Assembly: GCF_030811555.1 (NCBI RefSeq)
Contig: NZ_JAUSQZ010000001.1
Location: 2,911,241-2,975,240, forward strand
Direction of reading: 5' to 3'
DNA length: 64,000 bases
DNA from: Kineosporia succinea
GTDB lineage: Bacteria; Actinomycetota; Actinomycetes; Actinomycetales; Kineosporiaceae
Shown: piece after piece, positions 48,506 to 64,000 of the stretch
How the letters are laid out: every line of letters begins with the position of its first letter
Numbering within the stretch: position 1 is the first letter of the stretch
Program-made: the position numbers and the translations under genes
Notes under the pieces: model-generated
Database searches by the model: none
Told to the model about the DNA's origin: nothing
What the model saw: only the letters and a program-made list of their open reading frames with translations

Positions 48506-48591
48506 GTGGAGCCTCCGCTGATTAGGTGCCGTGAAGATTGCCGACCCCGGCGAAATCGTTCGTGAGTGCACCAGGGGTCGGCCAAAAACCT

Positions 48592-48597
48592 TACACT
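48592..48597 (+). promoter_or_regulatory. -10 box of a leaderless promoter (glycosyltransferase-like gene)
   Basis: TACACT fits TANNNT and ends exactly 6 nt before GTG 48604; there is no Shine-Dalgarno, so the transcript probably begins at the start codon. Confidence 0.5.
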
Positions 48598-48603
48598 CCG
48601 CAG

Positions 48604-49947
48604 GTGCCCCATCATGTGATCGCTGTTGCGGAATCGGACTCCTTCCTGAAATGGGCCGTCAGTCTGTTCGGTCAGCTGCCCGAGGGGACGCGGACCGAGG
48701 TCGTGGTGGCCTGTTCGCCGGCCAGACCTTCGGCGTCGCAACGGATTGCGGCCCTCAGTGGCACGGCGTACGCGGGTCATGACCCTGAGGTGCTGTCGCC
48801 GGGCCAGCTGACCAAGCTGGTCGACCGGGACCGGCCCGACGCAGTGCTGCTGGCCCTCACCGGCCCGAGCGTGCACGCGTACTCGGAGGCCCTGAGCAGG
48901 TGCGAGCACCGTCCCGTGGTGGTCACCGGCATCCCCGGCATCGCGATCCCCGCCCGCCGCCGGGCCTGGGGCTACCGCGGCGCCGTCGACCTCTGGGTCG
49001 TGCACAGCCACCGCGAGGCCGAGGCCTACGACCAGGTGCGGCGCCAGATGGGCATGGAGGCGCAGATCGGCCTGGCGACCATCCCGTTCCTGAACCGCCC
49101 GGCCGACATCCTGCCCGCGCGAGAGCTCGCCGATCATGGAAACCCGGGGCCCGGAACGGCTTTCGAACACTCGGTGAACGATGCGGGCACCAGTGTCGAA
49201 CCGCTGAACGCGGTGGCCAGCCCGACCCGCAACCGTGTGCTCTTCGCCACTCAGGGCAAGGTGCCGCGGGTCAAGAAAGACCGCGTCGCGATCTTGCAGA
49301 GCCTGGCCCGGCTGGCCGCGAACCGCCCCGACCTCGAGGTCGTGGTGAAGACGCGCGGTGCCATCGGCGAGTTCCACACCCACCACGAACCGCACCACTA
49401 CCAGTCGCTGTGGAACGAGCTGGTCGAGGCCGGCGAGGTGCACGCCCCCGATGCCCTGACCTTCGCGGCCGGTTCGATGGCCGAACAGCTCGCGAATGCG
49501 GTGGCGTTGGTCACGGTGAGTTCCACGGCCGTACTCGAAGCGATGGCGCTGGACATTCCGGTGCTTCTCATCGACGAGTTCGGCATCTCGGAGAACCTGA
49601 TCAACCAGGTGTTCGTTGGTTCCGGCGTGATGGGCGGCCTGGATCAACTCGAGCAAGGTGACTTCCGTCATCCCGAAACCTGGTGGCTGGCGGACAATTA
49701 CTTCCACCCGCGCAGCGACAACTCCTGGATCGGTATGCTCGACGAGCTGATCGAGCAGGCCCACGCCGGGCAGCTCCCAGCCATTGCCGACGGCTTGAAC
49801 AAGAGCCGTTCGGCGAAGCGGAGGCGGCTCGACCGCCTCCGTCTGACCCCGGTCGGAAGTGCCGTCGTGCGCGCCAGGGTCAGAACTCGTCAGCGGGTGC
49901 GAGACTCGTCACAGGCATTGACACGCATATCGTCGCAGAGTTCGTGA
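48604..49947 (+). CDS. Putative glycosyltransferase, DUF6716-like
   Basis: A 447-residue protein. It begins with a Rossmann-like strand (HHVIAVAESDSFLKWAVSLF), has a second Rossmann half starting near RNRVLFATQGKVPRVKKDR, and contains a GT-B-like donor region with SSTAVLEAMALDIPVLLIDE. I recall this pattern as DUF6716, a putative glycosyltransferase family near sialic-acid genes in actinobacteria. The C-terminal 60 residues are basic. It lies 186 bp before the NeuB-like gene on the same strand and likely uses the nonulosonate or builds its acceptor glycan. Acceptor and donor are unknown. Confidence 0.75.
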   Translation: MPHHVIAVAESDSFLKWAVSLFGQLPEGTRTEVVVACSPARPSASQRIAALSGTAYAGHDPEVLSPGQLTKLVDRDRPDAVLLALTGPSVHAYSEALSRCEHRPVVVTGIPGIAIPARRRAWGYRGAVDLWVVHSHREAEAYDQVRRQMGMEAQIGLATIPFLNRPADILPARELADHGNPGPGTAFEHSVNDAGTSVEPLNAVASPTRNRVLFATQGKVPRVKKDRVAILQSLARLAANRPDLEVVVKTRGAIGEFHTHHEPHHYQSLWNELVEAGEVHAPDALTFAAGSMAEQLANAVALVTVSSTAVLEAMALDIPVLLIDEFGISENLINQVFVGSGVMGGLDQLEQGDFRHPETWWLADNYFHPRSDNSWIGMLDELIEQAHAGQLPAIADGLNKSRSAKRRRLDRLRLTPVGSAVVRARVRTRQRVRDSSQALTRISSQSS

Positions 49948-49986
49948 TTGCGTCGATAGCTGGACCCCCGTTGTTCACACAGCTTG

Positions 49987-50010
49987 TTGACGGGATCCGT
50001 AACCTAAACT
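49987..50010 (+). promoter_or_regulatory. Possible promoter of the NeuB-like gene
   Basis: TTGACG (49987-49992) and TAAACT (50005-50010) are consensus-like, but the 12-bp spacer is short, so only the -10 is convincing. It would give a leader of about 115 nt before ATG 50134. Confidence 0.3.
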
Positions 50011-50133
50011 CTCGCTCTCCGGGATCGTGGCCGACGAGGGGCTGTCCGAATCCTGCCGATGTCCCACACACTTGGGATCACTCCGGGGCAATCCGCCGGA
50101 GACTAGAGGGCCCTCAGGCTTGAAGGAGCAACA

Positions 50134-51030
50134 ATGACTGCTGGACCCAACAAGACGATCGCGCCGGTGGAGATCGGCGGCAAGCTGGTCGGCCCCGGCC
50201 AGCCGGTGTACGTCATCGCCGAGATCGGTCTGAACCACAACGGTGACGTGGCGATCGCCAAGCAGCTGATCGACATCGCCCACGAGGCCGGTTGCGACGC
50301 TGTGAAGTTCCAGAAGCGCACGCCGGAGATCTCCACGCCCAAGGACATGCGCGACGTCCAGCGTGAGACCCCGTGGGGCACCATGAGCTACCTCGACTAC
50401 CGCTACCGCGTTGAGTTCGAGGAGGAGCAGTACACCGAGATCGACAACTACTGCTCGAAGCTCGGCATGCACTGGTTCGCCTCGCCGTGGGACGTGCCCT
50501 CGGTCGAGTTCCTGGCGAACAAGTTCGACGTGGTCACCTTCAAGGTCGCCTCCGCCTCGGTCACGGACATCGACCTGCTCACGGCGATGAAGAACACCGG
50601 CAAGCCGGTCATCCTCTCGACGGGTATGTCCACCCTCGAGGAGATCGACAAGGCCGTGGAGACCCTCGGCACCGAGAAGCTCGTGATGATGCACGCGACC
50701 TCGACGTACCCGATGCCGGCCCACGAGGCCAACCTGCGCACGATCAACACGCTGCGCGAGCGTTACGGTGTGCCGGTCGGTTACTCCGGCCACGAGACCG
50801 GTCTGCAGATCAGCCTCGCCGCCGTCGCCCTCGGTGCCGTCACGGTCGAGCGTCACATCACGCTCGACCGCACCATGTGGGGCTCGGACCACTCCGCCTC
50901 GCTGGAGCCGAACGGCCTGCGTCACCTGGTCCGCGACATCCGGATCATCGAAGAGGCCCTGGGTGACGGCGTGAAGCGCGTCTTCGAGGGTGAGCTCAAG
51001 CCGAAGGCGCGTCTGCGTCGCGTCGGCTGA
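50134..51030 (+). CDS. neuB: Nonulosonic (sialic-type) acid synthase, NeuB family, without SAF domain
   Basis: NeuB-type enzymes condense phosphoenolpyruvate with an N-acylhexosamine (ManNAc, its 6-phosphate or a di-N-acetyl sugar) to make a nine-carbon acid. The TIM barrel is complete: YVIAEIGLNHNGD (about 23-35), DAVKFQKR, FASPWDVPS, FKVASAS, ILSTGMSTLEEI, ATSTYPMP, VGYSGHETG and VERHITLDRTMWGSDHSAS (about 238-256). At 298 residues it lacks the C-terminal SAF (antifreeze-like) domain of the usual 340-350-residue enzymes. ATG 50134 has gaaggag upstream. It is followed by a glycosyltransferase-like gene and the CMP-sugar synthetase. Confidence 0.92.
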   Translation: MTAGPNKTIAPVEIGGKLVGPGQPVYVIAEIGLNHNGDVAIAKQLIDIAHEAGCDAVKFQKRTPEISTPKDMRDVQRETPWGTMSYLDYRYRVEFEEEQYTEIDNYCSKLGMHWFASPWDVPSVEFLANKFDVVTFKVASASVTDIDLLTAMKNTGKPVILSTGMSTLEEIDKAVETLGTEKLVMMHATSTYPMPAHEANLRTINTLRERYGVPVGYSGHETGLQISLAAVALGAVTVERHITLDRTMWGSDHSASLEPNGLRHLVRDIRIIEEALGDGVKRVFEGELKPKARLRRVG

Positions 51031-51045
51031 ACCCCCTGAGGCTGG

Positions 51046-51051
51046 GATAAT
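51046..51051 (+). promoter_or_regulatory. -10 box of a leaderless promoter
   Basis: GATAAT (five of six matches to TATAAT) ends 6 nt before GTG 51058, in the 27-bp gap after the neuB stop; no Shine-Dalgarno is present. Confidence 0.45.
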
Positions 51052-51057
51052 CACACC

Positions 51058-52071
51058 GTGACCGACGTCGCCGGAACAACCGGCACCGTGCAGGCCTGGG
51101 TGGAGTCGCCCTTCCAGCTCCTCGGAGCACTGGAGGCGCACGCCGCGGGCCGGCTCGGCCGTCGGCTCGACGTCCTTCCCCGTAAGGACGTCGAGCCGCT
51201 GGTGACGGCGGTCGCGGAGGTCACCCGCCTCGGGCTCCCCGAGGGGGCAGCCGTCCGGCTCCCCTCCGGGGCACCGCGTCGCGGCGGCGACGACCTCGCC
51301 GTCGGCGACGCCTTCTCCGGGGCCGTCCACCGCCTCCTGGTGCAGGGGCCGCCCCGCCGTCTCGTCCTTCTCGACGACGGCCGTTCCACCCGCCGCGTCA
51401 TGGACGCGCTGCTCGACCCCGAGATCCCCCTGGTGCGCCCGCACGTGCGGCAGACCGCTCACCGCAACGTGCTCGCCCGCATGGCCAAGGCCCGCATCCG
51501 CCGCATGATCAGCCAGGGCCGGGTGCGCGTCATCACCTCGTTGCCGCTGCCCGATCGGGTACTGCGCGAGGCCGCCGCCATCGGCCTGCCGGTCGAGCCC
51601 AACGACTTCGCCTGGCTGCGCTCGCTGCCGGGTGGTGAGTCCGGTCAGCCCGGCGTCGAGAAGACGATCGTGCTGGGCACCTCGATGGTGGCGAACCGGT
51701 TGATCAAGGCCGCGCCCTATCTGTCCTGGATCCGCGGGCTGGCCGACCGGGGCCCGGTGGTCTACCGGGCGCACCGCCGCGAGAACGCGTCGACGCTGAG
51801 CCCGCTCACCAACTACCCGGGCATCACCATGGTGCACGGCGAGGTGCCGGTCGAGATCAGCCTGCGCGGCATGACCGAGGCACACCGGGTGATGTCGCTG
51901 CCGAGCACCGCCGTCACCACGTTGCGACTGATCGCGCCCCAGGCCCGGATTCAGGAGTTCGCGGTCCCGCGCGACTGGTGGATGCCGGAGACCCCCGAAG
52001 CCGCACGTCAGCACCTGGTGCCCGACGACGAGTCGGATTTCCTTGAGATTCCACAGCATTCGTCGCACTGA
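51058..52071 (+). CDS. Putative glycosyltransferase, sialyltransferase-like (uncertain)
   Basis: A 337-residue protein in the nonulosonate island. The start VQAWVESPFQLLGALEAH resembles the N-terminal strand of GT52 and polysialyltransferase-type GT-B enzymes, and the C-terminal segment VHGEVPVEISLRGMTEAHRV followed by LPSTAVTTLRLI resembles their nucleotide-sugar region (GEVP, then S-STA). These links come from motif style only. Position between the synthase and the CMP-sugar synthetase makes a sialyltransferase-type role reasonable. It contains no TM helix. Confidence 0.6.
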   Translation: MTDVAGTTGTVQAWVESPFQLLGALEAHAAGRLGRRLDVLPRKDVEPLVTAVAEVTRLGLPEGAAVRLPSGAPRRGGDDLAVGDAFSGAVHRLLVQGPPRRLVLLDDGRSTRRVMDALLDPEIPLVRPHVRQTAHRNVLARMAKARIRRMISQGRVRVITSLPLPDRVLREAAAIGLPVEPNDFAWLRSLPGGESGQPGVEKTIVLGTSMVANRLIKAAPYLSWIRGLADRGPVVYRAHRRENASTLSPLTNYPGITMVHGEVPVEISLRGMTEAHRVMSLPSTAVTTLRLIAPQARIQEFAVPRDWWMPETPEAARQHLVPDDESDFLEIPQHSSH

Positions 52072-52204
52072 GCGGCCGGGAACAACCTGCGTCGGCGGTA
52101 TTCTCATGGGTAGGCCCGCCGGAGGGCCTGGCCGGTAGTGGTGTGCCTGAAAATCGCCGGACATGCTGCTAGGCCCCCATCCCAGCTAGTCCCGAGGATC
52201 CCTC

Positions 52205-53413
52205 GTGAGTGACGCACCACCTGCCCAGACCCGTCCCCGCGTTGTCGCTGTCATCCCCGCCCGAGGGGGGTCGCAGGGCGTCAAGCTCAAGAACCTCGAG
52301 CCGGTCGGGGGCCGCAGCCTGCTGATGCGTGCCGTCACCGCCTGCCGCAAGTCGCAGCTGATCGACGAGGTGGTCGTCAGCTCCGACCACGCCGGCATCC
52401 AGGAAGAGGCCCGCCGGGCCGGGGCCACCGTGGTCGTGCGCCCCGCCGCCATCTCCGGCAACACCGCGTCCTCGGAATCGGCCGTGCTGCACGCGATCAC
52501 CGAGATCCAGGGCGACGGCGAGGCCCCCGAGGTGACGGTGCTGGTGCAGTGCACGAGCCCGTTCATGGACCCGGCGGATCTCGACGCGGCCATCGGCCGG
52601 GTGCTCTCGGGAGAGGCCGACTGCGCCTTCTCAGCGGTCGAGAGTCACGCGTTCCTCTGGAAGTACGGGCCGGACGGCCTGATCGGCATCAACCACGACC
52701 CCAGCTTCCGCCCCCGCCGGCAGGACCGCGACACCGAATTCCGTGAGACGGGCGCGTTTTACGCGATGCGCACCGACGGTCTGCGGCGTCACGGCCGGCG
52801 GTTCTTCGGCACCCTGGTCGCGCAGCGCGTCAGCGACGACCACGCGATGGAGATCGACACCCCCGACGACCTCCACATCGCCCGGCTGCGCGCGGCGGTG
52901 CTCGAGGAGCAGGAGCGCATCGACGGCCTGCCCAAGATCGACGTCGACACCCTGGTGATGGACTTCGACGGTGTGCACACCGACGACCGTCTCTACCTCA
53001 CCGAAGACGGTGCCGAGAGCGTTCGCCTGAGCCGTGAGGACGGCATGGGGATCAAGCTCGCCCGGCAGGCCGGCCTGAACATGCTGATCCTCTCCACCGA
53101 GGTCAACAAGGTGGTGGCCGCCCGCGGCGCCAAGCTGCAGATCCCGGTGATCCACGGTTCGTCCGACAAGGCCCAGGCCCTCAAGGAGTGGCTGGCCGCC
53201 GAGGGGCTCGACCCCGAGCGCGTGGCCTACGTCGGCAACGACGTCAACGACCTGGGCTGCCTGCGCATGGTCGGCTGGCCGATCGCGGTGTCGAACGCGC
53301 ACCAGGTCGTCAAGGACGCGTCGCGCCTCACGCTCAGCAAGAGCGGTGGTTCGGGTGCGGTGCGCGAGGTCTGCGAGCTGATCATCTCGGCGATCAACGC
53401 CCGCGAGGAGTAA
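52205..53413 (+). CDS. neuA: Acylneuraminate cytidylyltransferase fused to KdsC-like HAD phosphatase
   Basis: A 402-residue bifunctional enzyme. Residues 10-235 form the CMP-nonulosonate synthetase: IPARGGSQGVKLKN (17-30; the usual SKG is SQG), LVQCTSPF, RETGAFYAMR and the DD-containing EIDTPDDLHIA. Residues about 248-400 form a KdsC-type HAD phosphatase with DFDGVHTDD (Asp253, Asp255), ILSTE, SSDKAQAL and GNDVNDLGC, all catalytic positions intact. The fusion suggests a 9-phosphate intermediate is dephosphorylated, as in animal sialic acid synthesis. GTG 52205 has gagga upstream, and a TATTCT -10-like box lies at 52099-52104. It ends the island. Confidence 0.92.
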   Translation: MSDAPPAQTRPRVVAVIPARGGSQGVKLKNLEPVGGRSLLMRAVTACRKSQLIDEVVVSSDHAGIQEEARRAGATVVVRPAAISGNTASSESAVLHAITEIQGDGEAPEVTVLVQCTSPFMDPADLDAAIGRVLSGEADCAFSAVESHAFLWKYGPDGLIGINHDPSFRPRRQDRDTEFRETGAFYAMRTDGLRRHGRRFFGTLVAQRVSDDHAMEIDTPDDLHIARLRAAVLEEQERIDGLPKIDVDTLVMDFDGVHTDDRLYLTEDGAESVRLSREDGMGIKLARQAGLNMLILSTEVNKVVAARGAKLQIPVIHGSSDKAQALKEWLAAEGLDPERVAYVGNDVNDLGCLRMVGWPIAVSNAHQVVKDASRLTLSKSGGSGAVREVCELIISAINAREE

Positions 53414-58631: not shown

Positions 58632-58649
58632 ATCTTCCGGTGTTACCTC

Positions 58650-58655
58650 TAGGGT
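58650..58655 (+). promoter_or_regulatory. -10 box upstream of the Gfo/Idh/MocA gene
   Basis: TAGGGT matches TANNNT and lies 8 nt before ATG 58664, consistent with leaderless or near-leaderless transcription. Confidence 0.5.
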
Positions 58656-58663
58656 GTGCATTC

Positions 58664-59665
58664 ATGACCGAAGTGCTTCGCTGGGGGATCATCGGCACCG
58701 GGGGAATCGCCTCGCGGTTCGCGGCCGACACGGCCAAGCTGGACGACACGGCAGTGTCCGCCGTCGGCTCGCGGTCGGCGGCGAAGGCCGCCGAGTTCGC
58801 TGCCACCTGGGGCGTTCCGGCCAGTCACGGCAGCTACCAGGACCTGGTCTCCGACCCGTCGGTGGACGCGGTCTACGTGGCCAGCCCGCACCCGTTCCAC
58901 GCCGAGCACGCCCTGCTGGCGATCGCCGCGGGCAAGCACGTGCTGGTGGAGAAGCCGTTCACGATGGACGCGGTCGAGGCCCGCACCGTGGCCGACGCCG
59001 CGCGCACGGCCGGGGTCTTCTGCATGGAGGCGATGTGGACCCGCTTCCTGCCGCACATGGTGCACCTGCGTGAGCTGCTCGCCGCCGGCGCGATCGGCGA
59101 CGTGCTGGCCATGGGCGCCGACCAGGGCATGCGCTTCGAGCAGAACCCCGAGCACCGGCTGTTCTCGTTCGAGCTCGGCGGCGGCGCCCTGCTCGACCTC
59201 GGCATCTACCCGTTCTCGTTCGCCTCGATGGTGCTCGGCGCCCCGCAGACCGTGCGGGCCGCCGCCACGCCCGCCTTCACCGGCGTCGACGGCACCACCT
59301 CGGCCGTGCTCACCTACGGCAACGGCGCGCACGCGGTGATCCTGTGCAGCGCCACCGTGGCCACCCCGATGAAGGCGTGGATCGCGGGCACCGAGGGCCG
59401 CATCGAGCTGGACCGCCAGTGGTACACCTCCACCACCACCCTCACGCTCACGAAGAGCGACGGCAGCACCGAGAAGTTCGAGCCGGTGCCCGGGCTGGTC
59501 GAGGGCCGGGCCAAGGGCATGCACTTCATGGTCACCGAGGCGGTGGAGCGCATCCGCGCCGGTGAGCTGGAGAGTGAGGTCATGCCGCTCGACGAGACCA
59601 TCTCGATCATGGGCATCCTCGACGAGGTCCGCGACCAGATCGGTCTCGTGTACCCAGAGTCCTGA
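58664..59665 (+). CDS. Gfo/Idh/MocA-family NAD(P)-dependent oxidoreductase
   Basis: A 333-residue dehydrogenase with the N-terminal Rossmann motif GIIGTGGIASRFA, the family motif VEKPF in KHVLVEKPFTMD (catalytic Lys), and the C-terminal alpha/beta domain (FELGGGALLDLGIYPFSF). Members oxidise or reduce sugars, inositols or related diols; the substrate cannot be read from sequence. ATG 58664 gives the usual N-terminus; GTG 58640 would add eight residues upstream. It is near but not in the operon of galM. Confidence 0.9.
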   Translation: MTEVLRWGIIGTGGIASRFAADTAKLDDTAVSAVGSRSAAKAAEFAATWGVPASHGSYQDLVSDPSVDAVYVASPHPFHAEHALLAIAAGKHVLVEKPFTMDAVEARTVADAARTAGVFCMEAMWTRFLPHMVHLRELLAAGAIGDVLAMGADQGMRFEQNPEHRLFSFELGGGALLDLGIYPFSFASMVLGAPQTVRAAATPAFTGVDGTTSAVLTYGNGAHAVILCSATVATPMKAWIAGTEGRIELDRQWYTSTTTLTLTKSDGSTEKFEPVPGLVEGRAKGMHFMVTEAVERIRAGELESEVMPLDETISIMGILDEVRDQIGLVYPES

Positions 59666-59728: not shown

Positions 59729-60535
59729 ATGATTGCCCGAACCGCGACGGACATCCCTCTGCTGACGTGGTCGATCTTTGACGGTCACGGTGTGCGGGCG
59801 GCGGTGACCACCCGTGACGGCGGCGTGAGTGCCGGGCGCTACGCCTCGCTGAATCTCGGCCTGCACGTCGACGACGACCCGGAAGCCGTGCGGGTCAACC
59901 GCGAGCGGGCCGCCCGCGCGTTCGGCGCGGCTCCGCACGATCTGGTCTTCGCCAGGCAGGTGCACGGGCGTGAGGTGGCCACGGTCACCGAGCCCGGCCA
60001 GCAGGGCATCGAGGCCGACGCCCTGATCACCGCCGAGACCGACCCGGTGCTGGTCATCATGGTCGCCGACTGCGTGCCGCTGGTGCTGTTCGACCCGGTG
60101 CGCCGGGTGGCCGCCGCCGTGCACGCGGGCTGGCCCGGCACCGTCGCCGGGGTCACCACCGCCACCGTGCTCGAGCTCCAGAAGCAGGGCACCGACCCGA
60201 ACGACCTGCTCGTCGGCATCGGCCCCTCCATCGCCCCCGACCGCTACCAGGTCGGCGACGACGTGCACGTCAAGGCGGTCGAGGCTCTCGGAGATCGAGC
60301 CGGCGACGTCATCCGTCCCGACGGCACCGGCCGCTGGCTGTTCGACCTCTGGACCGCCAACATCATTCAGCTCACCGAGGCCGGCGTGCGGCCGGACGCG
60401 ATCGAGCTCGCGGGCCTGGACACCGGCCCGGGCACCCCGTTCTTCAGCCATCGCTCGCAGGGCCCGACGGGCCGGTTCGCGGCCCTGGTCCAACTGAAAG
60501 CTCCGCAGTCTCCCGAGAATCAGGATCCCCGATGA
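59729..60535 (+). CDS. pgeF: Peptidoglycan editing factor PgeF (YfiH, laccase-domain family)
   Basis: A 268-residue protein of the YfiH/DUF152 family, once annotated as polyphenol oxidase. In E. coli, PgeF (YfiH) removes L-serine misincorporated in place of L-alanine in the UDP-MurNAc precursor; related proteins act on purine nucleosides. The metal-site triad is present: His79 (RQVHG), Cys115 (ADCVPL) and His132 (HAGWPG), and the C-terminal FFSHRSQGPTGRFAALV is typical. It overlaps murL by 4 bp (ATGA). Its place at the head of a D-glutamate-installing operon supports the peptidoglycan role here. Confidence 0.9.
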   Translation: MIARTATDIPLLTWSIFDGHGVRAAVTTRDGGVSAGRYASLNLGLHVDDDPEAVRVNRERAARAFGAAPHDLVFARQVHGREVATVTEPGQQGIEADALITAETDPVLVIMVADCVPLVLFDPVRRVAAAVHAGWPGTVAGVTTATVLELQKQGTDPNDLLVGIGPSIAPDRYQVGDDVHVKAVEALGDRAGDVIRPDGTGRWLFDLWTANIIQLTEAGVRPDAIELAGLDTGPGTPFFSHRSQGPTGRFAALVQLKAPQSPENQDPR

Positions 60536-61911
60536 GCACACCTCCGGCGACGCCCGCCGACGAGCGCAAGGAGCCGCAGCGCGCGGCGCGTTTCACCTAC
60601 GTGGGTTTCGACATCGAGCCCGCGGCGAACCGCGTCGTCTGCCGCTACCGGCTCGACGACACCGAGTTCTCCGAGGTCGTCAGCTTCCCCGGCGGCGGTG
60701 ACTGGACCACTCCCGCCGTCACCGAGGCCGCGCGCATCCTGTTCCTGCTCACCGGCGTCTCGTACTACAAGGCCGGTGCCCCGCCGGTGGTCGACCTCGG
60801 TGAAACCGCGCTCACCGAGACCGAACTCGCCTTCCTGAAGAGCTTCTACCAGGACGGCCTGGGCGAGTTCGCCTACCGCAACGGGATCAGCCTCCAGGAC
60901 CTGGAGTTCGAGACCGAGATCCTCGAGAGAACGCACAGCGCGCAGTACCGGCCCCGCCAGAACAGCCCCCTGGTCCCGTTCGGCGGCGGCGTCGACTCCA
61001 TCGTCAGCGTCGAGCAGATCCGCCCGCACACGCAGGACGCGGCGCTCTTCGTGGTCACCCGCCCCGGTGACGAGTTCGACGCCATCGAGGAGCCGGCCAA
61101 GGTCACCGGCTGGCCGGTGGTGCGCGCCGAGCGCTCGATCGACCCGACCATCCTGCGCTCGCGGGAACTGGGCTTCCTCAACGGCCACGTGCCGGTCACC
61201 GGCATCATCTCGGCCATCACCGTGCTCGCCGCGGTGCTCGAGGGCCGCGATGCGGTGGTGCTGTCCAACGAGTGGTCGGCCTCCTCGGCCACGCTCCACG
61301 ACAACGGCCGCCCGGTGAACCACCAGTTCTCCAAGAGCGAGACGTTCGAGGCCGGTTTCCGTGACGTGCTGGCCGGGGCCCTGGGCGACGGCCTGCAGTA
61401 CTTCTCGCTGCTGCGCGCGCTCAGCGAGGTCTGGATCGCGGCCCGGTTCGCCGAACAGCCGCAGTACTTCGACCATTTCCGCAGCTGCAACAAGGCCTTC
61501 CTGATCGACACCACCAAGCGGTTCGACCACTGGTGCGGCGTCTGCGACAAGTGCGCCTTCATCGACCTGGTGCTGGCCCCGTTCGTGAGCAAGGAAGACC
61601 TGCAGCGCATCTTCCGGGTCGCCGGTGAGCCCCTGCAGAAGCCCGAGCTGCTCGAGACCTTCCGCCGGCTGCTGGGTTTCGTGCCCGACGCCAAGCCCTG
61701 GGAGTGCGTGGGCGACGTCAGCGAGAGCCGGGTCGCCGCGCGGGCGGCCGCGGCCCGTCCCGACCGGGCCGGCGACCAGATCCTGCAGACGCTGGCCCTG
61801 GCCGCGGGGGGTTACGGCGACCCGGCCCCCGAGGAACTGCTGAAGCCGATGAGCCGGCACTTCGTGCCCGAGCGCTATCAGCCCGAGATCCTGCGGAACG
61901 CTCATGAGTGA
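60532..61911 (+). CDS. murL: UDP-MurNAc-L-Ala-L-Glu epimerase
   Basis: MurL epimerises the terminal L-Glu of UDP-MurNAc-L-Ala-L-Glu to D-Glu in an ATP-dependent manner; with MurD2 it replaces glutamate racemase and MurD in some bacteria, first shown in Xanthomonas. The 459 residues match that family as I know it: N-terminal YVGFDIEPAANRVVCRYRLDD, a PP-loop-like FGGGVDSIVSVE (about 150-161), SNEWSASSATLHD, and a Cys-rich segment with Cys319 (FRSCNKAF) and CGVCDKC (335-341) that could bind zinc. It overlaps pgeF by 4 bp and murD2 by 8 bp, so the three are one operon. Confidence 0.88.
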   Translation: MSTPPATPADERKEPQRAARFTYVGFDIEPAANRVVCRYRLDDTEFSEVVSFPGGGDWTTPAVTEAARILFLLTGVSYYKAGAPPVVDLGETALTETELAFLKSFYQDGLGEFAYRNGISLQDLEFETEILERTHSAQYRPRQNSPLVPFGGGVDSIVSVEQIRPHTQDAALFVVTRPGDEFDAIEEPAKVTGWPVVRAERSIDPTILRSRELGFLNGHVPVTGIISAITVLAAVLEGRDAVVLSNEWSASSATLHDNGRPVNHQFSKSETFEAGFRDVLAGALGDGLQYFSLLRALSEVWIAARFAEQPQYFDHFRSCNKAFLIDTTKRFDHWCGVCDKCAFIDLVLAPFVSKEDLQRIFRVAGEPLQKPELLETFRRLLGFVPDAKPWECVGDVSESRVAARAAAARPDRAGDQILQTLALAAGGYGDPAPEELLKPMSRHFVPERYQPEILRNAHE

Positions 61912-63262
61912 CGCTCTGTCCTGGGACGACCTCGACGGTCACCGCATCGGCATCTACGGTCTGGGCCGCGAGGGTGAGGCCAGCCTGCGCGCCTGCCAGG
62001 CCCGCGGCATCGAGCCGCTGCTGGTCGACGACAACCCGCCGGCCGGCGGGGTCGAGGGCCGCAAGGTCCTGGCCACGGCCGAGGGCGGTTTCGACGCGCT
62101 CTCGGTCTGCGAGATCGTGATCAAGTCACCGGGTATCAGCCGCTACGCCGACCAGGTCACCGCCCTCGAAGACCAGGGCGTGCGGGTCGTCGGCGGGCTG
62201 GGCCTGTGGGTGGAGGGCGCCGACCCTGACAAGGTCGTGCTGATCACCGGCACCAAGGGCAAGAGCACCACGGCCGCGATCACCGGGCACCTGCTCAAGG
62301 GCCTGGGCTACCGCACGCTGGTCGGCGGCAACATCGGCGTCCCGCCCTTCGACCCGGCGCTCGACCCGGCCGTCGGCGGTCCGGCGCAGGACTTCTGGGT
62401 GATCGAGGTGTCGAGCTACCAGGCCACCGACATCCTCAGTGCGCCGCACGTGGTCGGCGTGACCTCGCTCAACCCCGACCACCTGCCCTGGCACCGCAAC
62501 GAGCTGGAGACGTACTACCGCGACAAGCTCAGCCTGGCCGGGCGGCCGGGGGCGCGGTGGACCGTGGCGAACGGCGACAGTGCCGAGATCCGTGACCGCG
62601 CCGCTCTTCTGGGACCCCGGATCGAGTGGGTCACCGCGGTGCAGGGCGAAGAGAAATGGATCGACGAGCTCGGCCTGCTCGGCGTGCACAACCGTCGCAA
62701 CGCCGCGATCGCCCGCACCATGCTGCAGAAGCTGGGCGTGAAGCAGGCCGACGACGAAGACGAGCTGGCCCGTGCCGCAGCGGGTTTCGCCGGTCTGGAG
62801 AGCCGTCTGCAGCAGGTCGGCATGATCGACCAGGTGAGTTTCGTCGACGACGGGCTGTCCACCAACGTGCTGCCGACGCTGGCCGCGGTCGAGGCCTTCG
62901 AGGGGCGCCGGGTGGCGCTCATCGTCGGTGGCCAGGACCGGGGCATCGACTACCGGCCGCTGGCCGAGGGGCTGCGTGAGCGTGAGTCCGAGGTGCTGGT
63001 GCTGACCACGCCCGACAACGGCCCGCGCATCGCGTCCGAGCTGAACCAGACCGGATGCGGTCCGCACGCCACGGTGAAGGAGACCGCCGACCTCGACGAG
63101 GCGGTGGAGGAGGGTTACGCCTGGGCCCGGCCCAACGGCGTGGTGCTGCTGTCGCCCGCCGCGCCCAGTTTCGGCCGGTTCCGCGACTACCGGCACCGCG
63201 GTGAGGCTTTCGTCGAGGCGATGAACCGGATCTCGCGCCGGGGGCCCGGCTCACCCGGTTAG
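61904..63262 (+). CDS. murD2: UDP-MurNAc-L-Ala--L-Glu ligase (MurD2)
   Basis: A 452-residue Mur ligase. An N-terminal NAD-binding-like domain (GIYGLGREGEASLRA) is followed by the ATP-binding GTKGKSTTAAITGHL (Walker A 116-122), EVSSYQA, HLPWHRNELETYYRDKL, GVHNRRNAAIA and the C-terminal DDGLSTNVLPTLAAVEAF and GGQDRGIDY, all in MurD order. Its 8-bp overlap with murL marks it as MurD2, the variant that adds L-Glu rather than D-Glu; classical MurD usually sits in the dcw cluster. Specificity cannot be proven from sequence. Confidence 0.88.
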   Translation: MSDALSWDDLDGHRIGIYGLGREGEASLRACQARGIEPLLVDDNPPAGGVEGRKVLATAEGGFDALSVCEIVIKSPGISRYADQVTALEDQGVRVVGGLGLWVEGADPDKVVLITGTKGKSTTAAITGHLLKGLGYRTLVGGNIGVPPFDPALDPAVGGPAQDFWVIEVSSYQATDILSAPHVVGVTSLNPDHLPWHRNELETYYRDKLSLAGRPGARWTVANGDSAEIRDRAALLGPRIEWVTAVQGEEKWIDELGLLGVHNRRNAAIARTMLQKLGVKQADDEDELARAAAGFAGLESRLQQVGMIDQVSFVDDGLSTNVLPTLAAVEAFEGRRVALIVGGQDRGIDYRPLAEGLRERESEVLVLTTPDNGPRIASELNQTGCGPHATVKETADLDEAVEEGYAWARPNGVVLLSPAAPSFGRFRDYRHRGEAFVEAMNRISRRGPGSPG

Positions 63263-63343: not shown

Positions 63344-64000
63344 ATGTCGTCAGGAAAGTTCCGTCTGGTCACACGAAGCGACTTCGACGGTCTCGTCTGC
63401 GCGGTGCTGCTGCGCGCACTCGACATGATCGACGAGATCACCTTCGTGCACCCGAAAGACGTGCAGGACGGGCTGGTCGAGGTCACCGATCAGGACATCC
63501 TGACCAACCTGCCCTACGCCGCGCAGGCGCACCTGGTGTTCGACCACCACCACAGCGAGACGCTGCGGGTGGGCGGCACCCCGAAGAACCACGTGATCGT
63601 CGAGGAGGCGCCGTCCGCGGCCCGCGTGGTGTTCGACCACTACGGCGGCGCGAAGGCGTTCCCGATGGTCTCGGACGAGCTGATGCGGGCCGTCGACCAG
63701 GCCGACTCGGCCGACTACGCCCTCGGCGACATCCTCGAGCCGCAGGGCTGGGCGCTGCTGAACTTCCTCATGGACAGCCGCACCGGCCTGGGGCGCTTCC
63801 GTGACTTCCGGATCTCCAACTACCAGTTGATGATGCAGCTCATCGACAGCGTGCTGAACGAGGCCTCGGTCGCCGACATCCTGACCGAGCCCGACGTGGC
63901 CGAGCGGGTGACGTTGTTCCAGGAGCAGTCCGAGCTGTTCGTGGCCCAGTTGCAGCGGGTTTCGACCGTCCGGGGTGATCTGGTGGTGGTCGACCTGCGT
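63344..64000 (+). CDS. DHH-family phosphoesterase (3' end outside window)
   Basis: The first 219 codons of a gene running off the right edge. It has the DHH superfamily metal motifs: D-x-D in TRSDFDGLVCAVLL (about 10-20) and DHHHSE (about 67-72), plus a later Asp in VDQADSADYAL. DHH proteins include exopolyphosphatases, nanoRNases and c-di-AMP phosphodiesterases; this one resembles the group annotated as exopolyphosphatase-like. GGAGG lies 8 nt before ATG 63344. It follows murD2 by 81 bp, possibly in its own transcription unit. Confidence 0.85.
   Translation, partial: MSSGKFRLVTRSDFDGLVCAVLLRALDMIDEITFVHPKDVQDGLVEVTDQDILTNLPYAAQAHLVFDHHHSETLRVGGTPKNHVIVEEAPSAARVVFDHYGGAKAFPMVSDELMRAVDQADSADYALGDILEPQGWALLNFLMDSRTGLGRFRDFRISNYQLMMQLIDSVLNEASVADILTEPDVAERVTLFQEQSELFVAQLQRVSTVRGDLVVVDLR

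Follow-up and report, generated by a model that had tools for sequence, protein, structure and literature searches.

In Xanthomonas oryzae, passages of two reports (PMC8788868, PMC5808125) describe a route to D-glutamate in which MurD2 adds L-Glu and MurL then epimerises it, with conversion of ATP to AMP, and the same activities are reported there for the Micromonospora/Salinispora orthologues (Feng et al. 2017, in PMC8788868). Other published passages describe the hydrolysis of UDP-MurNAc-L-Ser by Escherichia coli YfiH (PMC8844914), the need of E. coli MurD for a carbamylated K198 to be fully active (PMC4816537) and the binding of Thermotoga maritima MurD to MurG and MreB (PMC6420597). Here, a pgeF-murL-murD2 operon of Kineosporia succinea was analysed in a window of 64,000 nucleotides, i.e. 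the whole stretch between positions 2,911,241 and 2,975,240 of contig NZ_JAUSQZ010000001.1, the genome (8.07 Mb) being a single contig. The MurL/MurD2 route is a published pathway, of which the operon is a new representative; the genus Kineosporia does not figure in the part of PMC8788868 that lists MurD2/MurL users by genus. The genes and their overlaps are as follows.

59729..60535, + strand: pgeF, coding for a YfiH/YlmD-family peptidoglycan editing factor of 268 residues (TIGR00726, 164.5 bits for a cut-off of 141.15)
60532..61911, + strand: murL (NF041275, 337.2 bits, E = 1.2e-100, residues 16-450)
61904..63262, + strand: murD2 (TIGR01087, 252.1 bits for a cut-off of 211.95)
60532..60535, + strand: overlap of 4 bp (ATGA) between the pgeF stop and the murL start
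61904..61911, + strand: overlap of 8 bp between the murL end and the murD2 start

The initial annotation, made from the letters of the DNA, had proposed these three open reading frames (ORFs), their overlaps of 4 and 8 bp and the names PgeF, MurL and MurD2; the frames and overlaps are present, and the three family searches bear out the names. As in the X. oryzae and Micromonospora/Salinispora systems covered by the published passages, murL and murD2 are adjacent, MurI is absent and an arginine occupies the position of E. coli K348, and by analogy L-Glu ligation followed by epimerisation is expected in Kineosporia. The Kineosporia system differs from them by an aspartate at the position of E. 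coli D182, by the presence of pgeF in the cassette and by the conservation of a dead-looking MurD in the division and cell wall (dcw) cluster.

Our reading, to which we assign a probability of about 0.7, is that in Kineosporia an imported cassette would make the D-Glu of the cell wall, whereas the dcw MurD would no longer be a ligase and would have been kept as a non-catalytic partner. The pgeF-murL-murD2 cassette would have been acquired from elsewhere, as suggested by the foreign grouping of its PgeF and MurD2; MurD2 would ligate L-Glu and MurL would epimerise it; MurI would have been lost and MurD retained where another role existed. The dcw MurD would act as a partner of the MraY/MurG/FtsW machinery, chiefly via its domains 1-2. 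Since the T. maritima enzyme binds MurG and MreB, complex-building would be, by analogy, the most likely candidate for this role.

The dcw MurD of Kineosporia

Six Kineosporia genomes, including that of the window, were compared. The ORF located between mraY and ftsW still scores as MurD (TIGR01087, 216.6-218.9 bits in the window's genome for a cut-off of 211.95), is full length in the six genomes and groups in the tree with the dcw MurDs of its own family, in agreement with a vertical descent. Fifteen active-site positions were checked in E. coli numbering; except for D182, K198, K319 and K348, we take the residue numbers and roles to be the usual ones. Nine of them (S116, N138, E157, D182, H183, K198, K319, K348 and S415) are lost in all six Kineosporia proteins, whereas the 11 canonical actinobacterial MurDs all keep these nine residues (S or T at 116). 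The stretch 182-198 is partly deleted, which makes the placement of single residues uncertain, the residues being nevertheless absent. K115, R302, D317 and T321 are kept in 6/6. In the window's genome, the protein retains the Pfam match of the N-terminal domain and gives no match to the middle domain, Mur_ligase_M, at E 0.001. The dcw MurD thus resembles its canonical actinobacterial counterparts by its mraY-ftsW position, its descent and its N-terminal domain and differs from them by its active site. The second murD evoked in the initial annotation does exist in the dcw cluster, but the table of active-site positions predicts that its product is catalytically dead. No description of a retained dead MurD was found among the titles listed in searches of the open-licence PubMed Central (PMC) literature. 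As a separate observation on this cluster, murE and mraY of the window's genome are separated by a gap of just 178 bp (L017:9372-9550) from which murF is missing, and a MurF-like gene is located elsewhere (L008).

The five other Kineosporia dcw MurDs are 76-81% identical to that of the window's genome, the corresponding values for MurE being 77-82%. The median dN/dS (Nei and Gojobori method, NG86) is 0.31 for the dcw MurD, compared with 0.29 for FtsW, 0.27 for MurE, 0.30 for PgeF, 0.22 for MurC, 0.19 for MurD2 and 0.09 for MraY. Purifying selection on the dcw MurD was seen in each of three non-overlapping pairs, in which every one of 500 random placements of the observed base changes was more nonsynonymous than the real gene. 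In these pairs, the nonsynonymous odds are 0.13/0.31/0.36 for the dcw MurD and 0.18/0.26/0.41 for FtsW, versus 2.9/1.65/1.29 for the antisense frame used as control. Calculated for domains 1, 2 and 3 of the dcw MurD, the odds are 0.37, 0.25 and 0.31, the middle domain being the most constrained, and those of MurE, FtsW, MurG and MurC are 0.28, 0.31, 0.22 and 0.20.

Truncated MurD in a second genus

Among 78 genomes of genus g57 (family f35), 70 harbor a MurD in the canonical range (349-401 bits), seven have a best match in the MurD2 range and one is cut by the contig end. MurL and MurD2 were seen together in G427, G442, G460, G440 and G423 (L238-L242), and no MurI was found in G092, G156 and G380, the three MurL-positive members searched for it. 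The dcw cluster was located in six MurL-positive members (G092, G156, G380, G427, G442 and G460); in all six, the dcw MurD is cut, give or take a few residues, at one point, the boundary between domains 2 and 3, and ftsW follows. Unlike the canonical actinobacterial dcw MurD, these proteins retain domains 1-2 and have lost the C-terminal domain; the P-loop looks intact in G460 and is altered in the five other remnants. The dcw clusters of G440 and G423 lie outside this set, and no second MurD-type match was found in these two genomes at E 1e-32 among the matches listed. A node with 94% support joins the dead MurDs of Kineosporia and family f35, possibly as a result of long-branch attraction.

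The only g57 pair that surely diverged after the truncation is the sister pair G427-G092, in which the remnant is under purifying selection with odds of 0.31, compared with 0.34 for FtsW; the divergences of G442-G460 and G156-G380 may predate the loss. In a tree of MurE, MraY, FtsW and MurG, the six truncated members are interspersed with 20 canonical congeners, five changes are needed and a single clade is rejected (p = 9.7e-10). In the tree of MurD domains 1-2, in which 8 of 30 inner branches are well supported, two changes are needed and a single clade is not rejected (p = 0.50). A firm count of five independent truncations was withdrawn in view of the two changes needed in this last tree. 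Either repeated cutting took place at one boundary, with fast evolution pulling the remnants together in the tree, or recombination spread a single truncated murD among congeners; neither scenario is what one would expect of a useless gene.

Several points weigh against our reading of an imported cassette and a retained partner. The dcw MurD is under weaker constraint than MurG, MurC and MurD2. Relative to five dcw neighbours, it evolves about 1.5-2.9 times faster in Kineosporia than in the sister genera (for example, ratio to MurE 0.98 versus 0.65, to MraY 3.71 versus 1.3); FtsZ, whose ratio goes in the opposite direction (2.17 in Kineosporia versus 8.9), was left out of this comparison on account of differing aligned spans. 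Taken with the nonsynonymous odds, this faster evolution indicates that the selection acting on the Kineosporia dcw MurD, as judged from these alignments, is relaxed, not absent. No MurD-like ORF is left in the dcw cluster of several other MurL lineages (L135-L137, L140, L148 and L149), and a structural role of MurD is therefore not universal. The conflict between the flanking-gene and remnant trees suggests that the g57 truncation may have arisen anywhere from once to five times. Finally, the window's MurD2 has an aspartate in place of E197, a residue that helps determine the L-Glu specificity of the X. oryzae enzyme, and an aspartate/glutamate-racemase relative (L003) exists and might be a minor source of D-Glu.

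A doubtful though serious alternative is that the dcw murD is merely decaying, its frame being held open by the overlapping, translationally coupled dcw genes and its protein being idle. The overlap of 4 bp between murD and ftsW in the window's genome (L017), the faster relative evolution, the complete loss of the dcw murD in the other MurL lineages cited above and a g57 truncation possibly reduced to one event, spread or inherited, are all compatible with it. Coupling, however, preserves a frame and not amino acids, and the odds of the three Kineosporia domains stay near those of MurE and FtsW; moreover, g57 has lost the C-terminal domain yet kept domains 1-2, with purifying selection in the G427-G092 remnant. 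We consider the chances even that, more generally, the MurD of actinobacteria serves a second purpose besides catalysis, mainly through domains 1-2, and that the protein, free to lose its activity once an imported MurL/MurD2 pair does the chemistry, persists as a pseudoenzyme in Kineosporia and, separately, in g57.

It is improbable that the dcw MurD has acquired a new catalytic activity, as a neofunctionalised Mur ligase or hydrolase. The strong conservation of the protein and the four active-site residues kept in the six Kineosporia would fit such an activity, but the Mg and carbamyl-lysine positions are gone, the middle domain is not matched in the window's genome and the g57 remnants are devoid of the whole C-terminal domain.

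The route to D-glutamate

The suggestion of the initial annotation that the organism lacks MurI was borne out, the best TIGR00067 match in the window's genome reaching 23.4 bits for a cut-off of 146.65. None of the six Kineosporia gives a match above 30 bits with this model, whereas MurI is present in 7/7 family members belonging to other genera (217-237 bits). In a sample of 394 genomes of the class, MurL was found in 23. A strong MurI (E < 1e-25, counted by eye from the listing) is present in 5 of these 23 versus 365 of the 371 MurL-negative genomes (Fisher p = 7.6e-22, uncorrected for kinship); the curated TIGR00067 cut-off is passed by just 296 of the 394, since some families carry a diverged MurI. 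In G056, G339, G098 and G140, MurI, canonical MurD, MurL and MurD2 occur together (the G339 MurI, with 141.4 bits, is barely below the cut-off), and these genomes possibly represent early stages of replacement. In G324, MurI is present and no canonical MurD was detected at E 1e-22.

Three PF01177 matches of the window's genome, which looked like MurI (E 2.2e-59), were rejected. The first is a protein of 251 residues with no NCBIfam equivalog above cut-off, encoded beside what we take to be an NCS1-type transporter; the second gives weak matches alone; the third, L003 (2866217-2866867 of the genome), belongs with TIGR00035 (238.5 bits for a cut-off of 93.1) and remains below the cut-off of the aspartate/glutamate racemase equivalog (291.5 for 417). 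Three Aminotran_4 matches were likewise discarded as D-amino-acid transaminases, being a PabC-type protein and IlvE, both over their cut-offs, and a weak PabC-type match; no protein of this genome passed the curated cut-offs for a D-amino-acid transaminase.

The MurD2 residues were tabulated in 102 partly redundant rows, again in E. coli numbering. K115 and S116 are kept in 102/102 rows, and E157, H183 and K198 in all 101 scorable ones; MurD2, which has also changed its substrate, thus served as the control for the losses in the Kineosporia dcw MurD. The position of K348 is an arginine in the window's MurD2 and in 97 of 98 scorable rows, and that of K319 is a leucine in the window's protein and L or I in 99/99 scorable rows. 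According to a passage of PMC8788868, the K319T change allows E. coli MurD to accept L-Glu and the E197D change alters the stereospecificity of X. oryzae MurD2. The latter position, D182 in E. coli, is D in the window's MurD2 and in 53 of 59 scorable actinobacterial rows versus E in 40 of 42 others, a division that follows the phyla roughly. Since Actinomycetota have D and the other lineages E, the determinant of stereospecificity may differ between phyla. As the glutamate is lacking at this position, the assignment of the window's protein to MurD2 is based on its linkage to murL, on R348 and on the tree.

It is very unlikely that D-Glu comes from the racemase relative L003 and is the substrate of this MurD2, in which D occupies the D182 position. 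The TIGR00035 score of L003 and the published effect of E197D speak for this route; however, D is usual in actinobacterial MurD2 (with redundant rows included in the count), R348 and L/I319 mark the protein as MurD2, L003 is under its equivalog cut-off and MurL would be left without substrate. Least likely of all is the proposal of the initial annotation that a second pool of precursors is made for a special cell-wall layer or a developmental stage, since neither MurI nor a D-amino-acid transaminase passes the cut-offs and, with a dcw murD product predicted dead, no canonical route can be recognised beside the cassette, despite the two murD-like genes above cut-off in the genome and the coexistence of both routes in the four genomes of the class mentioned above.

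The cassette and its MurL

A scan of GTDB yielded at least 584 confirmed MurL loci; of the best 80, 33 carry actinobacterial titles. In 24 of the 33, PgeF is encoded immediately upstream of MurL and on its strand (aligned gap of -4 to 108 bp); in one it is divergent. With the window's PgeF as query and flanks of at most 6 kb, several contigs being shorter, no PgeF was found next to MurL in the 47 non-actinobacterial loci. The pgeF-murL-murD2 cassette is recurrent in actinobacteria, and the "distinctive organisation" initially attributed to it was too strong a term. Its gene order is kept in the six Kineosporia genomes, which argues against a fortuitous collection of ORFs; the five other MurLs are 84-89% identical to that of the window.

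In the PgeF tree, the FtsZ-adjacent PgeFs are separated from the remainder (99% support, Shimodaira-Hasegawa-like approximate likelihood ratio test, SH-aLRT), the Kineosporia PgeF lies among the cassette PgeFs and a single clade for the PgeFs of its own family is rejected (approximately unbiased (AU) test, p = 1.1e-4). Both PgeF and MurD2 of Kineosporia group with those of other MurL-bearing actinobacteria. A dcw pgeF is labelled in 5/7 members of the family from other genera (L125 is unlabelled and L126 ends before ftsZ); none was found in the six Kineosporia, and the window's genome has a single PgeF. These trees and gene positions indicate that the Kineosporia PgeF arrived with the cassette and that the native dcw pgeF is gone. 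The window's PgeF resembles YfiH, as described in the relevant passages of PMC8844914, by scoring above the TIGR00726 cut-off, and a UDP-MurNAc-L-Ser amidase activity would be expected; it differs by its membership of the cassette clade and by a gene joined to murL-murD2 and not to ftsZ-yggS.

In two genomes of family f26, G017 and G172 (L145, L146), the cassette is located within the dcw cluster between mraY and ftsW, the usual place of murD, with about 1.8-1.9 kb of other sequence between it and ftsW; this is an apparent in-place replacement of the dcw murD. In G300, a third f26 genome, the cassette is on the opposite strand about 3.9 kb from ftsW. MurL relatives were also seen in metagenome-assembled genomes labelled Saccharibacteria, Dormiibacterota, Eubacteriales and Ruminococcus (L193, L195, L205 and L210), taxa outside the list given in PMC8788868; binning errors are possible.

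The window's MurL scores below the cut-off of 700 of NF041275, a Xanthomonadales equivalog, which is reached by no match in the class sample. In alignments of 21, 14 and 27 rows, a PP-loop-like GGGxDS motif (151-156) and Cys 319, 335, 338 and 341 are invariant or nearly so. The initial annotation had considered that the 60532-61911 product might align to an unrelated PP-loop family; the search with hidden Markov models gave no such match, but the predicted fold is nonetheless of the PP-loop type. The AlphaFold2 model has a mean predicted local distance difference test (pLDDT) of 93.2, and its best Foldseek matches, all with a probability of 1.00, are 9y01_B, a chain of the QatB-QatC complex which we take to be QatC (E = 2.5e-6), QueC 2pg3 (1.6e-4) and 3bl5_A (6.2e-4). 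The model predicts that MurL is a QueC/QatC-like PP-loop enzyme, with the glycine-rich motif ending in DS and the four cysteines as further likenesses. It differs from QueC/QatC by a whole-chain template modelling (TM) score of just 0.39 to 9y01_B, by the absence of any Pfam match or significant sequence match in the PDB and by its substrate. QueC-type enzymes activate a carboxylate with ATP. The modelled fold would fit the ATP-to-AMP chemistry, or adenylation, proposed for MurL. No link between MurL and QueC was found in the open-licence PMC literature.

A second MurL-like gene (L016:9896-11293, - strand; 5040085-5041191 of the genome) scores 104 bits with NF041275, shows the PP-loop-like and Cys motifs and is overlapped by a downstream BKACE-domain ORF. 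It was rejected as a pathway member, its product being 22% identical to the window's MurL and no murD-like ORF having been noticed beside it; judged by its motifs, this product is possibly an epimerase or a QueC-like enzyme. PADLOC returned nothing for MurL or for this distant paralog.

The operon is flanked in the window by the following genes.

58640..59665, + strand: conserved upstream neighbour ending 63 bp before pgeF, presumably a Gfo/Idh-type oxidoreductase
63344..64000, + strand, running past the window edge: downstream neighbour coding for a 313-residue protein with a weak DHHA1 match (20.6 bits for a cut-off of 25.9)

This DHH-like downstream gene follows murD2 in syntenic position in 6/6 Kineosporia. 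Promoter and terminator scans found nothing. Elsewhere in the window, at 48538-53413, genes for a NeuB-family synthase, a DUF6716 putative glycosyltransferase and a CMP-sugar transferase fused to a KdsC/KDN-phosphatase-like HAD domain likely form a nonulosonic-acid locus, here in an actinobacterium.

Kineosporia is added to the users of a known pathway, and the QueC-like PP-loop fold offers a structural rationale for MurL. A 'murD' annotation in the dcw cluster can label an inactive protein, which is relevant to inhibitor work. The novelty lies in the natural experiments provided by lineages that have outsourced the MurD reaction and nevertheless conserve the old protein minus its active site. 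They make it possible to test the structural roles of Mur ligases in the MraY/MurG/FtsW machinery apart from catalysis and, if the more general reading with a second function of MurD is true, the g57 truncations would be natural separation-of-function alleles.

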